20,286 nt of DNA from IMG/VR virus record IMGVR_UViG_3300047560_002067, positions 1 to 20,286 of that record. One strand, 5' to 3'. Each line of letters begins with the position of its first letter. The first letter of the stretch is position 1. The stretch comes from a virus. Positions 10,297 to 14,805 of this stretch are shown in pieces. A program made the translations under genes and the position numbers. The notes below the pieces were generated by a model, which was not told the DNA's origin, made no database searches, and was given only the letters and a program-made list of their open reading frames with translations.

Positions 10297-10734
10297 ATGT
10301 TGTTCCACATCAAGATCGAGCCACCGCCCACCCATCAAGCAGCTCTGCGTATCCTCAAGACCAAGGATGGTCGGCAGTTTATCGGCAAGATGGCTAAGTC
10401 ATCCGCAAAGAAATGGAGCGTTGAGGCTACCAGTATGATGAAGCAGTTGGCGCAGGAAGCCAAGGTCACCCCCCTTGACGAGCCTTGCCAGGTAGGTATA
10501 GTGTTCATCTATCCCCATACCAAGGAGAGTAAGAAGACTGCCGACAAGACCGGGGCTGATGTGGTATCAAAGTCCACCCGCCCAGACCTGGACAACCTAG
10601 CCAAGTCCGTGCTGGACTGCCTTGTTGACTCTGGCTGGCTGAAGGACGACGGGCTTATCGTCGAACTGGTTCTGCGTAAGGGTCACGGAGAACAGCCGAT
10701 GGTTATTGTTGACATTACTCCTTACACCGAATAG
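10297..10734 (+). CDS. rusA: RusA-like Holliday junction resolvase (145 aa)
   Basis: RusA proteins are dimeric endonucleases that cut four-way DNA junctions. The signature RPDLDNLAKSVLD at 95-107 carries the metal-binding Asp97, Asp99 and the family Asn100, with Lys103. DD at 117-118 and a Lys at 128 match the remaining conserved acids and basic residue. Length is typical (about 120-150). It is the first gene of the rightward operon, directly after the divergent promoter and an AAGGAGG site. Together with the nuclease and Rad52-like protein downstream it completes a phage recombination set. Confidence 0.9.
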   Translation: MLFHIKIEPPPTHQAALRILKTKDGRQFIGKMAKSSAKKWSVEATSMMKQLAQEAKVTPLDEPCQVGIVFIYPHTKESKKTADKTGADVVSKSTRPDLDNLAKSVLDCLVDSGWLKDDGLIVELVLRKGHGEQPMVIVDITPYTE

Positions 10735-10751
10735 CCCACTTGTCCTCACCT

Positions 10752-11555
10752 ATGAGCAACACATCCCAAATCATCCACGATCTGTCCTTCGCAGATTACA
10801 AGAAGAACCCCGGCGTGAATGCGTCCTTCCTCAAGAAGTTCGCCGTCTCGCCCCTGTACGCCAAGACCGACACGTTTGAGTCTTCGGCTGCCACCGACCT
10901 CGGCAACTACGTCCACGCCCTGCTGATTGACCGTGGCACGTTGGACAACTTCGCCTGTCTCCCGACCACGGGTGAAGGTAGCAAGACGGCTCGCGCCAAG
11001 TGGCGTGAAGAACATCCCGATGGTGTCCTCCTCTCTCCGGCACAGATGGAGCAGGGCAAGGCAACCGCACAGTCGCTGGCTAACTATCCGTACTACGACG
11101 AGCTGCTTAAGCGTGGCAAGGTGGACACGGAAGTTACCATCTTCGTCAAGCATCCCAAGTACGGCTTCCCTATGAAGGCTCGTATCGACATCCTGGTTAC
11201 CGATGGCGACAGGATGTGGCTGGGCGACGTGAAGACCTACGGCAAGGCTCTGACCAAGAAGTCCCTGTTTTGGGATATCCGTGACCGGGGTTACGACATT
11301 CAACTCGCTCACTATCGTCGCTGTCTCCAGATCGCCCTCAACCGTTCCCCGGAAGAGATGGCGTTGTACTTCGGTGAAACGGAAACGGCTGCTCATGACA
11401 GTTGCAAGGTCACCTTGGACGAAGGCTGGCTCGCCCACGCTGAGATGCGTCTGGACGAGTACTACCGCATCTACAACGACTGCTATGAGTCCGATGTGTA
11501 TCCAGGCTTCAACTTCGGCAAGCCGTTGACCCTTACCCTAGGCGACACGGTCTAA
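10752..11555 (+). CDS. RecE-like PD-(D/E)XK exonuclease (267 aa)
   Basis: Resembles the nuclease domain of exonuclease VIII (RecE), which resects double-strand ends to leave 3' tails. LGNYVHALLID at 50-60 provides the family His. Glu127 lies ahead of RIDILVTDG, with Asp146. LGDVK at 157-161 gives Asp159 and Lys161. GYDIQLAHY at 180-188 is the Gln/Tyr motif. I start at ATG 10752 rather than a TTG twelve bases earlier. The leader CACTTGTCCTCACCT has no Shine-Dalgarno site. The gene pairs functionally with the Rad52-like annealing protein at 13936, as in RecE/RecT systems. Confidence 0.88.
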   Translation: MSNTSQIIHDLSFADYKKNPGVNASFLKKFAVSPLYAKTDTFESSAATDLGNYVHALLIDRGTLDNFACLPTTGEGSKTARAKWREEHPDGVLLSPAQMEQGKATAQSLANYPYYDELLKRGKVDTEVTIFVKHPKYGFPMKARIDILVTDGDRMWLGDVKTYGKALTKKSLFWDIRDRGYDIQLAHYRRCLQIALNRSPEEMALYFGETETAAHDSCKVTLDEGWLAHAEMRLDEYYRIYNDCYESDVYPGFNFGKPLTLTLGDTV

Positions 11556-11560
11556 AGCAT

Positions 11561-12208
11561 ATGACGCACGGCACTTGGATTCCCAAGGCCGTATTGGAAC
11601 GGGTGGACATTCCTTTGTCTGCCCGTGTCCTTTACGGACTAATCGATGCCTTGGATGGCGACGAGGGATGCTACGCTTCCAACGGGTGGATCGCCACGAA
11701 CTTGGCGCTGACTCCACGGCAAGTCCAGAACCTCCTCAAGACCCTTATCGATAACGGGCTTGTGGTACGCCTGGAAGTGGACGGCAAACGCATCCTGCGG
11801 ACGGTGGAGAAACAGGCACTCGTAGCCCTCAAGGGGGATGCAGCCAATTTCATACCCCCCACGAAATCCGTTTCACGCCCCCCACGAAATAGACTTCATA
11901 CAGATAGTACAGAGGATAAGACAGAGGATAACAATAACCCCTTACCCCTTCCTCACAGTCCTATGTTCCGTAGGGTCTGGGACGAGTGGGTGAAGTATAG
12001 GCGAGCGTCCAAGAAGGCTTTGTCTGCCTTCGCCCAGCAAAAGCAGCTGGCTATGCTTGGCGCGTTGACGGAGGCTGAAGCCATCGAGTGCATCAACCGA
12101 TCCATCGCCAACGACTGGCAGGGTCTGTTCCCGGAGAAGAAGCCTGGACACAATAGTAAATCTTTTTCCAAAATCTTAACCAAGGATGACCACGCCAATG
12201 GATTCTGA
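11561..12208 (+). CDS. Winged-helix replication initiation protein (215 aa)
   Basis: Residues 15-80 form a winged helix: ALTPRQVQNLLKTLIDNGLV is the recognition part, followed by a wing strand (VDGKRILRTV). After a Pro/Thr-rich linker (about 98-135), the C-terminal domain contains RVWDEWVKYRR and NRSIANDWQGLFPE, a pattern typical of phage replication initiators (lambda O and DnaD-like organisers) that recruit the helicase loader. The next gene is a DnaC-like loader, supporting that role. The linker DNA carries two sets of direct repeats that may be the origin. The gene starts five bases after the nuclease stop without a Shine-Dalgarno site. Confidence 0.82.
   Translation: MTHGTWIPKAVLERVDIPLSARVLYGLIDALDGDEGCYASNGWIATNLALTPRQVQNLLKTLIDNGLVVRLEVDGKRILRTVEKQALVALKGDAANFIPPTKSVSRPPRNRLHTDSTEDKTEDNNNPLPLPHSPMFRRVWDEWVKYRRASKKALSAFAQQKQLAMLGALTEAEAIECINRSIANDWQGLFPEKKPGHNSKSFSKILTKDDHANGF
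11855..11931 (+). repeat. Direct repeats inside the initiator gene, candidate replication origin
   Basis: CCCCCCACGAAAT occurs at 11855-11867 and again at 11878-11890 (23-bp period). It is followed by ACAGAGGATAA at 11909-11919 and 11921-11931 (12-bp period). AT-rich bases lie between and after. Iterons next to an AT-rich stretch within the initiator gene is the lambdoid ori arrangement; here the repeats also fall in the non-conserved linker. Confidence 0.5.
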
Positions 12209-12893
12209 CCGGCCTTACTGTCGTGGGTGCAAGGGGCAAGTGACCCCTGTGCTGGACACGAACAAGAACCAGCTGCTGAACTTCTTCACCTGTGAGCCTT
12301 GCGCTGTCAGCGGGAAGACCTCGCACTTCAGCCATCCGTTCGACTACACGGAGATGTTCAAGGGCAAGGGCTACAAGTTCATCCACCATCACCCAGACTA
12401 TCCCAAGGCGTTCCTCGATACAGACCTCTCCTTGCTCCCCCAGAGCCTTCAGACGGCTTCGGGATGGTCACCGTCCACCAAGGCAAGCATCCTGCTCCAC
12501 GGGACGACTGGGACGGGTAAGACGAGAACTGCGTGGCTCATCTTCAATCGCCTGTGGTTGCACAACTTCCCGGAACGGGCAGTATGGTTACCTATGCGGA
12601 AACTTGAAGCCTCCATCGAGAAGGGCTTTGAAGACCACAAGCACGGCAAGGTACTCGACTTCTTCTGCACCGTCCCACTCCTGGCGTTCGACGATCTGGG
12701 GAAGGAACGGTTGACTGCCCGCTTGGAGGCAGACCTGTTCGCCATCCTGGACGAACGCACCAGCAATCTCCGACCCACAATCATCACGACCAACTACAAT
12801 GGAACAACCCTCCTCGACAGGTTCAGCAACAAGGAAACAGGTGAAGCCTTCCTGCGCCGACTCCGTGAATACTACCACGCAGTTCACTCTTGA
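12186..12893 (+). CDS. DnaC-like AAA+ helicase loader with zinc finger (235 aa)
   Basis: Loads replicative helicase onto DNA at the origin. The N-terminus has CRGC (12-15) and CEPC (36-39), a four-Cys zinc site. The ATPase core has Walker A GTTGTGKT (106-113), Walker B LLAFDDLG (165-172), sensor 1 TTN (201-203) and an Arg-rich RRLREYY close to the C-terminus, where the arginine finger is expected. Length is as in DnaC-type loaders. It overlaps the initiator gene by 23 bases. A second ATG at 12198 is a possible alternative start. It forms the replication pair with the upstream winged-helix protein. Confidence 0.88.
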   Translation: MTTPMDSDRPYCRGCKGQVTPVLDTNKNQLLNFFTCEPCAVSGKTSHFSHPFDYTEMFKGKGYKFIHHHPDYPKAFLDTDLSLLPQSLQTASGWSPSTKASILLHGTTGTGKTRTAWLIFNRLWLHNFPERAVWLPMRKLEASIEKGFEDHKHGKVLDFFCTVPLLAFDDLGKERLTARLEADLFAILDERTSNLRPTIITTNYNGTTLLDRFSNKETGEAFLRRLREYYHAVHS

Positions 12894-13113
12894 GGCATTG
12901 GACTGCCGGTATCCGCTGACGCTTTGGAAGGTCAAGAGCCAGTCCAGCAGCTCCTACTATACGTCCAACATCCTAACGAACCAATGCAGTTGCGAACACT
13001 GGATGCGTCGCCTGTGGGACAAGCCGGAGGAGCAACGCATCTGCAAACATATCCGTGCTGCCCGTGAACAGGCGTTAACCGAATATCTGAAGGACTTGAA
13101 AAAAAGATATTGA
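12865..13113 (+). CDS. SWIM-type zinc-finger protein (82 aa)
   Basis: Contains CSC at 41-43 and CKH at 60-62, i.e. CxC-x16-CxH, the SWIM zinc-binding pattern found in DNA- or protein-binding proteins linked to recombination. The N-terminal part (TLEALDCRYPLTLWKVKSQS) is probably a small beta unit and the C-terminus is a basic helix. An ATG at 12799 is in frame, but its extra 22 residues overlap the loader gene and look like a shadow. I therefore use GTG 12865, which still overlaps by 29 bases. Its place in the replication operon suggests binding of DNA or a replication protein; unproven. Confidence 0.65.
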   Translation: MNTTTQFTLEALDCRYPLTLWKVKSQSSSSYYTSNILTNQCSCEHWMRRLWDKPEEQRICKHIRAAREQALTEYLKDLKKRY

Positions 13114-13150: not shown

Positions 13151-13615
13151 ATGAAACGCATCCTATCACTCCTCCTGGCGTTCGCCTCCTGCGAAGCCAA
13201 GTCCATCGTCAATGAAGACCTCGTCCACAAGGTCGCCATCATTGAGTCCAACATCAACGACGATGCCATCAGCGATGGTGGTCGTAGCCTTGGTGCTTTC
13301 CAGATTAGCAAGGAGGCTTGGTCTGATGCCGTCGCCTACGATCAGGTTACTGCCGGCCCTCACGACTCGACCCTGCCGACCAACTGGAAGGTCTACGCCC
13401 ATAACTTCGATGTGGCGCATCGTGCAGCTGAACTCATCCTGCTGATGCACGAAGCCCGGATGATTCGCAACAAGATTAAGCCCACTCCTATGAAGTTGTA
13501 TATGGCTTACAATATGGGCTACAACCAAGCCTCCTCGTTCAACTTCAACGAGAACATCACCTTCGGCAAGCGGAAGGCCATCCTCCTGCGAGCCAAGCAA
13601 ATCCTTTCCAAGTAA
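13151..13615 (+). CDS. Exported lytic transglycosylase-like enzyme (154 aa)
   Basis: Residues 1-16 are a signal sequence (MKRILSLLLAFASC); Cys14 makes it a possible, loosely matching lipobox. The mature part fits the lysozyme-like transglycosylase fold: Glu32 in AIIESN (catalytic), GAFQI at 48-52, and MAYNMGYN at 118-125. Such enzymes cleave the MurNAc-GlcNAc bond of peptidoglycan. It is placed among replication and recombination genes rather than beside the holin at 18796. It could be the endolysin (signal-dependent export) or a DNA-entry muralytic enzyme. The leader CACATACACTTCACATCC is C/A-rich, with no Shine-Dalgarno site. Confidence 0.78.
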   Translation: MKRILSLLLAFASCEAKSIVNEDLVHKVAIIESNINDDAISDGGRSLGAFQISKEAWSDAVAYDQVTAGPHDSTLPTNWKVYAHNFDVAHRAAELILLMHEARMIRNKIKPTPMKLYMAYNMGYNQASSFNFNENITFGKRKAILLRAKQILSK

Positions 13616-13935: not shown

Positions 13936-14805
13936 ATGACCAAAGAACAACAGATTGAAATGCTCAAGCAACTCCGCGCCCCGTTCCCTGCTGACCGCAT
14001 CGAGTGGCGACTCCAGTCCTCCGGCGAAAAGCAGGACGGCAGCATCTGGGCAAAGTGCCTGTGCTATATCGACAACCGTGCTGCTATGGAACGCCTGGAT
14101 GAAGTGTTCGGCACTTGCTGGTCGCACAGCGAGGAGTTCATCCAGATCGGCAACCAAGCCGTCTGCACGGTGACCATCACCATCGAGTATATGAACGGCG
14201 AGGAAGGTCGTCCGCTGTTCCCCCATCGCTCCGTGTCCGGCAGCTGTGCCGTCGAAGCCAACGGCGACATCGACCCGTTCAAGTCGGCTGCCTCTGGTGC
14301 TATGAAGCGAGCCGTCGTGAACCTGGGCATCGGGCGCTACCTGTATGAGTTGCCCGAAGCGTGGGCTATCATCACCAACGATGGCAAGTACGAGGGCAAG
14401 ACCAAGAACCAGACCCGCTTCCGTTGGAATCCTCCGTCCCTTCCCGCTTGGGCCGGTGGCGATGGTGCTGAGTCTCCTGCTCCCGCCCAGCGTTCCTATC
14501 AAGCCCCTGTAGCCTCTGCCCCTGCTCCTGCTCCCGTGGAGTCCGACGGCACTTGGCGTACTGTCGTCATCCCGTTCGGCAAGCAGAAGGGTCAGACCCT
14601 TGGTCAGCTGCCTCCGGCTTCCCTCAAGTGGTGGCGCGAGAACTACCAGCCAAAGCCATACAACGGCAAGATTTCTGCCAAGGACAAGGCGTTCCGTGAC
14701 GCTCTCGACCAGTCGGCTGGTGCTTACGCTCCGATGCCAGGTCTGCCCACGGCATCCACCGATGAGGTGGTTACCGATAACCCCATCGACGACGTTCCGT
14801 TCTGA
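13936..14805 (+). CDS. Rad52-like single-strand annealing protein with ExoX-like segment and SSB-like tail (289 aa)
   Basis: Anneals complementary single strands during phage recombination. Residues 1-145 match the Rad52/Rad22 core: IEWRLQSS, YIDNRAAMERLDEVFG at about 44-59, and SGAMKRAVVNLGIGRYLYELP at 120-140. A Pro/Ala linker (178-203) leads to a short domain, VIPFGKQKGQTLGQLPPASL, then KWWREN (211-236). This resembles the small domain found at the C-terminus of ExoX-type exonucleases. The last residues, DDVPF, mimic the conserved tail of bacterial SSB (DDIPF). The start at ATG 13936 excludes an upstream open stretch that overlaps the 99-aa gene. Partner of the RecE-like nuclease. Confidence 0.88.
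   Translation: MTKEQQIEMLKQLRAPFPADRIEWRLQSSGEKQDGSIWAKCLCYIDNRAAMERLDEVFGTCWSHSEEFIQIGNQAVCTVTITIEYMNGEEGRPLFPHRSVSGSCAVEANGDIDPFKSAASGAMKRAVVNLGIGRYLYELPEAWAIITNDGKYEGKTKNQTRFRWNPPSLPAWAGGDGAESPAPAQRSYQAPVASAPAPAPVESDGTWRTVVIPFGKQKGQTLGQLPPASLKWWRENYQPKPYNGKISAKDKAFRDALDQSAGAYAPMPGLPTASTDEVVTDNPIDDVPF

Follow-up and report, generated by a model that had tools for sequence, protein, structure and literature searches.

Bacterial SSB recruits repair enzymes through a short acidic C-terminal tip, and the partners of this tip include PriA, RecO, RecG, Pol III chi and DnaG. In the bacterial SSB-Ct (DDDIPF), as in phage SSBs, acidic residues are followed by an aliphatic residue, proline and phenylalanine at the end of a long disordered tail. 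The phage protein described here terminates in the same manner, but it does not match the SSB family (PF00436) and carries the tip on a Rad52-type annealase, after a small domain denoted FGK. Its annealing core is 35-42% identical to those of Sak/Rad52-type phage annealases (ul36 Sak and the Erf-like proteins of Sf6 and ES18; PF04098), with which it also shares a replication-gene context; however, the ul36 Sak, Sf6 and ES18-type proteins have other C-terminal regions without the tip, and an ssb gene is mostly present in these phages. A rad52/22-ssb module has been reported in Firmicutes phages (PMC8093625), Sak is reported to need its cognate phage Ssb (PMC5499656), and the tail of the phage SSB is reported to be required for Sak4 (PMC5928155). 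A partial precedent is Deinococcus DdrB, an annealing protein that forms rings and has been proposed to carry an SSB-like motif at its C-terminus; nevertheless, DdrB, compared here by description rather than by sequence, has a different fold and comes from a different organism, and its motif was reported to be unnecessary for radioresistance (PMC3834827). In lambda Red-beta, a C-terminal module links the annealase to SSB-dependent sites (PMC8303780), but Red-beta receives the SSB tip, whereas the protein described here displays one.

The annealing protein and its gene neighbourhood

The window, that is, the whole stretch of DNA analysed, is a 20,286-base virus record (IMGVR_UViG_3300047560_002067) in which the ORF for the annealing protein lies on the + strand, with exact boundaries (ATG at 13936, TGA at 14803-14805) and DDVPF as the C-terminus of the product. 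The gene and the segments of its product are as follows:

13936..14805, + strand: Rad52-type single-strand annealing protein, 289 aa (ORF, translation, PF04098, PHROG_1097)
13960..14379, + strand: Rad52_Rad22 annealing core, residues 9-148 (Pfam boundaries; AlphaFold; VIA-align)
14464..14544, + strand: disordered Ala/Pro-rich linker, residues 177-203 (pLDDT <50; length and sequence vary among relatives)
14551..14736, + strand: small FGK domain, IPFGKQKG..L..L...SLKWW, residues 206-267 (16 invariant columns in alignment A3; PF12843, 22.5 bits)
14737..14787, + strand: variable disordered acidic tail, residues 268-284 (pLDDT <50 for 268-289)
14788..14802, + strand: SSB-type terminal tip DDVPF, residues 285-289 (kept in 47/48 relatives; synonymous codon variation)

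The protein matches PF04098 with E 6e-15 and 55.9 bits, against a curated Pfam cut-off of 20.3; all 31 members of alignment A1 match the same family at E <=0.1, and PHROG_1097 ('Erf-like ssDNA annealing protein') matches the window protein with E 2e-44. In an AlphaFold model built from 31 relatives, the core is predicted with confidence (pLDDT mostly 80-90) and the small domain lies between two disordered segments, residues 177-203 and 268-289. Plain Foldseek comparison of the whole model with the PDB gave no match at E <=0.001; RAD52 was recovered by VIA-align of the Foldseek candidates, with human RAD52 (5xs0_B) at their top (Z 12.1, rmsd 2.7, 123 residues), compared with Z of about 9.9 for yeast Mgm101 and about 6.5 for unrelated folds. 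By sequence and predicted fold, the window protein is a Rad52-type annealase, for which annealing and ring formation are predicted. The preliminary description of this DNA had already proposed a Rad52-like annealing protein, and structure prediction of its segments agrees with that proposal, yielding a Rad52-like core, a disordered linker, a small domain and a disordered tail that bears the tip. Neither the model of the whole protein nor that of the small domain gives a confident position for the tip. Membership of the protein in the SSB family can be dismissed, given that there is no PF00436 match at E <=1 and that the fold is that of Rad52 instead of an OB-fold.

The FGK domain on its own scores 22.5 bits against PF12843 (QSregVF_b, DUF3820), just above the gathering cut-off of 22, and the whole protein scores 19.8 bits, below this cut-off. 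A weak match to the C-terminus of pol III epsilon (PRK06309) was obtained with 11 of 13 members (E 5e-4 at best). No ExoX family is among the Pfam or NCBIfam matches of the protein or the domain; the FGK profile retrieved no convincing relative from the PDB sequences; and a 91-residue model of the small domain (mean pLDDT 65) had no structural match at Z >=2 among 49 chains. The conserved small domain that precedes the tip is real, and these matches agree with the ExoX-like label given to it but support it weakly, the PF12843 match being borderline, the PRK06309 match weak and no ExoX model involved. Whatever likeness there is to PF12843 and to the C-termini of ExoX- and pol III epsilon-like exonucleases, the domain is here joined to annealases. 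A PF12843 cluster in Southern Ocean viral genomes has been named 'quorum-sensing-regulated' (PMC8407431), and we suggest that viral proteins listed in this manner be re-examined as possible recombination adaptors.

Upstream of the annealase gene, the window encodes further recombination and replication proteins:

10297..10734, + strand: RusA-like Holliday junction resolvase (PF05866, 2e-18)
10740..11555, + strand: PD-(D/E)XK exonuclease, RecE/exonuclease VIII-like, probable nuclease partner, TTG start (PF12684, 3e-11; PF12705; phrog_412, 3e-35)
11561..12208, + strand: replication initiation O-like protein (phrog_678, 2e-15)
12186..12893, + strand: DnaC-like helicase loader (phrog_50, 3e-21)

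The order of this recombination-replication block is thus RusA, RecE-like exonuclease, O-like initiator, DnaC-like loader, small genes and annealase. A RecE-like exonuclease is also encoded in the flank of 20 of 38 relative loci, many of the flanks being too short. Two segments within the replication block resemble known domains at scores below the cut-off: window 12799-13113 a SWIM zinc finger (0.006), and window 13151-13615 a transglycosylase SLT domain (4e-4).

Conservation of the tip among close and distant annealases

A first scan of viral contigs yielded 38 relatives of the window annealing protein, and in all 38 loci D[DE][VI]PF directly precedes the stop codon. A second, profile-based scan added 10 relatives with a readable stop, 9 of them ending with an acidic-[VI]PF tip, and one more that is cut by the contig end, so that the tip is present in 47 of the 48 relatives in which the stop was read. 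Two scans of genome contigs yielded no relative; record G001 encodes a 547-aa protein, a large terminase judging by eye, that matches two phage records, the better one at 31%.

Among the relatives, the tail varies in length and sequence and its terminal residues are fixed. In the 48 parsed rows (L081 left out), the tip proline is encoded by CCG, CCC, CCA and CCT in 29, 10, 8 and 1 cases, respectively, and valine by GTT, GTC and GTA in 21, 15 and 8. The pattern [DEN][DEN][IVL]PF ends 48 of the 2239 ORFs of at least 60 aa in the window and the 48 relatives, and all 48 are among the 49 annealing-protein ORFs of this set; none of the 2190 other ORFs in the same loci has it, which excludes a chance motif. 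Hence the earlier proposition that DDVPF copies the acidic tip of SSB holds up in that the motif is terminal, lies on a predicted-disordered tail and is conserved within the clade (47/48).

The single exception among the relatives, L084, has the FGK domain but not the tip; no SSB was found in its 10 kb fragment, and a scan with L084 as the query retrieved only its own contig. In a tree of 67 core sequences, the tip clade (35 tip-bearing rows and L084) constitutes one side of a branch with 100/100 support, and the distribution of the tip requires 2 changes, consistent with one gain and one loss. The branch leading to the tip clade is very long, which implies that intermediates are absent from the sample.

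The fixed terminal residues bear on the possibility that the tip is an internal regulator that folds back onto its own ring, occupies the basic DNA groove there and bars DNA until single strands displace it. The tail is indeed acidic (net charge -5 over the last 25 residues) and flexible, and acidic tails are reported to control how the RNA chaperone Hfq anneals its substrates (PMC6561178, PMC5606850). For such a function, however, charge would suffice, yet proline is fixed in 48/48 and phenylalanine in 47/48 parsed rows, with the positions just upstream varying freely; moreover, a stand-alone protein without an annealing core, described below, has the same tip. We therefore consider autoinhibition quite unlikely.

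Outside the tip clade, the nearest named phage relatives have only the core in common with the window protein (35-42% identity over residues 7-187). Twelve of the nearest named or unnamed phage relatives were read, one of them (L099) being broken and not counted; the tip was found in none of the 10 readable named Rad52-type phage proteins, nor in one unannotated fecal record. It was likewise absent from 91 distinct annealase C-termini of the broader set of Rad52/Sak-type loci (L100-L255), and on the ERF side from P22 Erf, nine further named proteins and 80 Erf loci. For the proteins sampled, the tip is accordingly excluded as a general trait of phage Rad52 or Erf proteins, and the comparison of tails across phage Rad52 homologues proposed in the preliminary description has a divided outcome: the tip is kept within the window clade and missing from the distant homologues sampled.

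Tails are also shared between annealases of another kind. P22 Erf (L258:4255-4872) and the Sf6/ES18-type Rad52 annealases have a common C-terminal region (P22 residues 135-205, 63-78% identity), and their cores belong to different families, making this another instance of annealase tail exchange.

The FGK domain and tip across annealase families

A scan with L082, a divergent member of the clade, also drew proteins that are alike only in the C-terminal part, and a profile scan with this part yielded 42 loci, 8 from the window clade and 34 others. In 22 of the 34, the product is a stand-alone protein of about 130 aa that consists of the FGK domain, a linker and the tip:

L371:3851-4270, L370:3836-4240 and 20 other contigs (L376-L397): stand-alone FGK+tip proteins

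Of these proteins, 21 end with acidic-[VL]PF and one with ENMPY. The next gene encodes a RecT-like annealase in 21 of the 22 contigs (for L371, phrog_561, E 1.6e-30), the remaining contig ending too soon. The stand-alone protein matched no Pfam family (two proteins tested), no PHROG (one tested) and nothing among the named phage records. In other loci, the FGK domain and tip follow an annealing core, namely, SSAP_Sak (PF06378) in L399 and L406 and ERF (PF04404) in L409. One further stand-alone protein (L398) ends with DDEQIPF, with no annealase identified nearby; frames near it (L398:1890-2633 and 1075-1950) include, by eye, a YqaJ-type exonuclease-like frame and a 292-aa frame, possibly an annealase.

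Eight loci encode the FGK domain without the tip: four are Rad52-type (L400, L401, L404 and L410; L404 was classed as such via a C-terminus identical to that of L410 and near-identical length and start), three are ERF (L402, L403 and L405), and the last (L411) matches phrog_10048, of unknown function. The three ERF proteins have an acidic tail with a terminal phenylalanine (SEQEAF, NETEAF) rather than PF, possibly a variant tip. Across L376-L411, the tip pattern occurs in 27 of 1773 ORFs, and all 27 contain the FGK domain. Thus, the FGK domain and the tip form a cassette that is common to Rad52, ERF and Sak annealases and to a stand-alone protein encoded beside a RecT-like annealase. The SSB tip, Rad52-type phage annealases and PF12843 were already known; the newest part is the sharing of the cassette across four annealase families, and in searches of open-access literature we found no report of this tail cassette on phage annealases.

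The stand-alone protein lends itself to an explanation in which recombination proteins of the phage itself dock on the tip: this protein would coat or mark single strands and its tip would load the RecT-like annealase, and in the fused forms the tip would hold the exonuclease partner or a further annealase subunit. Such an arrangement is most attractive for the stand-alone protein, with its RecT-like neighbour in 21/22 contigs; in addition, RecT-family annealases are reported to read the C-terminal seven residues of host SSB (PMC10711431), the C-terminal domain of Red-beta is reported to bind both SSB and lambda exonuclease (PMC8303780), and the window annealase has a RecE-like exonuclease encoded upstream of it. 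In the Rad52, ERF and Sak carriers, however, the annealase bears the tip itself, so that recruitment of that annealase would be superfluous. On balance, a dock devoted to phage proteins seems to us rather unlikely.

The distribution of the cassette is also relevant to the idea, raised as displacement of SSB in the preliminary description, that the tip is a decoy that draws SSB-partner proteins off host SSB, to the detriment of host repair nucleases or replication. The terminal motif is identical in kind to the SSB tip, but in four annealase families the tip accompanies the annealing machinery, either in cis or in a neighbouring gene, which suggests a role in recombination and makes a decoy highly improbable.

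SSB genes and the possible role of the tip

PF00436 was detected in none of the 73 tip-bearing records (0/28, 0/19 and 0/26, the ENMPY record counted in); for the window clade, the counts are 0/28 and 0/20, the 20 being the 19 with the tip and L084. In the window phage, too, no SSB gene was found. SSBs of families other than PF00436 were sought with a local SSB profile in five tip-bearing records of 42.6-45.8 kb, where it found nothing and where the annealase is the sole ORF of at least 50 aa with such a tip. PF00436 is present in 31 of the 44 records with an ordinary Rad52-type annealase, in none of 5 P22-Erf-type records and in 3 of the 34 other FGK records (L401, L404 and L410). These three are all tip-less Rad52 carriers, so that an SSB accompanies three of the four tip-less Rad52+FGK proteins. 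The PF00436 counts are lower bounds because two ordinary Rad52-type records without a match (L125 and L134) nonetheless encode a divergent SSB with a DDDIPF tip.

The tip-bearing records differ in this respect from the tip-less FGK records (0/73 vs 3/9, Fisher 9e-4) and, among records of at least 40 kb, from those with an ordinary Rad52-type annealase (0/12 vs 23/31, Fisher 8e-6; 0/12 vs 23/35, Fisher 8e-5, with the four tip-less FGK records added), but these p-values overstate the evidence for exclusion because the counts are not independent, coming as they do from related records that are mostly fragments. Some phages have neither the tip nor PF00436: 8 of the 31 ordinary Rad52-type records of at least 40 kb (two of these with a divergent SSB), all five P22-Erf-type records and the ERF+FGK records L402, L403 and L405 (46.9-56 kb). 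Absence of an SSB alone therefore does not demand a tip on the annealase, and the data fit the statement that tip-bearers lack an SSB better than the statement that phages lacking an SSB need the tip.

In related phages, an ssb gene encoding a tip-bearing product usually comes after the annealase gene. In ES18, Sf6 and ul36, the phage ssb directly follows it, and in SV21 the ssb lies one small gene further; the respective SSBs end with DDEIPF (ES18), DSDIPF (Sf6) and DDDLPF (ul36 and SV21). The absence of the tip from distant annealases hence fits a relocated tip and is not a refutation, because an SSB is encoded in 31/44 ordinary but 0/73 tip-bearing records.

Several other SSB-like proteins were noticed along the way. 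Divergent ones ending with DDDIPF or DDDMPF, in L124, L125, L134 and L216, were detected solely via the local profile (E 4e-8 to 2e-9). In Vibrio phage 1.265.O, a 113-aa protein ending with DEEIPF (L098:2537-2878) is encoded directly after a short Rad52-type annealase and is possibly an unrecognised SSB or adaptor. The SSBs (PF00436) near ~1500 in L418, L419 and L420, which belong to the phages with a tip-less Rad52-FGK annealase, end with DDIPWE or EDVPW, tryptophan replacing the final phenylalanine.

From these patterns we tentatively derive a general scheme, to which we assign slightly less than an even chance: a mobile FGK+tip cassette has been fused to at least three annealase families and acts in trans beside RecT-like annealases, a phage that has it can dispense with an SSB of its own, and the tip resides either on the SSB or on the annealase or adaptor, not on both, so that the tip would be the conserved unit and its carrier interchangeable. 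As for function, a recruiting role of the tip is plausible. Our preferred explanation, which we judge evenly poised, is that the window protein is a phage annealase with its own SSB-type docking tip, and that the cassette replaces the arrangement of annealase and ssb, bringing tip-binding proteins, most likely those of the host, to the annealing site. This explanation draws on the fold class, the disorder of the tail, the conservation of the tip, its sharing among four families and the absence of PF00436; the reported dispensability of the DdrB motif for radioresistance counts against it, as do the phages with neither tip nor PF00436.

According to this docking-tip explanation, the RecE-like exonuclease encoded upstream would make 3' single strands, which the Rad52 core, probably an oligomeric ring like that of RAD52, would anneal. 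The FGK domain, which may bind DNA, and the flexible acidic tail would hang from the core and display D-D-V-P-F, and the tip would bring tip-binding proteins to the joint, where annealing would pass into replication. The recruited set would most likely consist of host proteins for replication initiation or restart and for the processing of joints. In the stand-alone form of the cassette, the tip may, in addition, recruit the RecT-like annealase encoded next to it because RecT-family proteins read the host SSB tip.

Annealing proteins are usually studied as cores with disposable tails. Ideas on how a phage annealase gains access to SSB-coated forks come from Red-beta and RecT, which receive the host SSB tip, whereas the window annealase displays one. 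If the tip recruits replication-restart or repair proteins, the window annealase would combine in a single protein what many phages divide between an annealase and an SSB. If this holds true, the purpose of the phage SSB tip would become directly testable through five residues.
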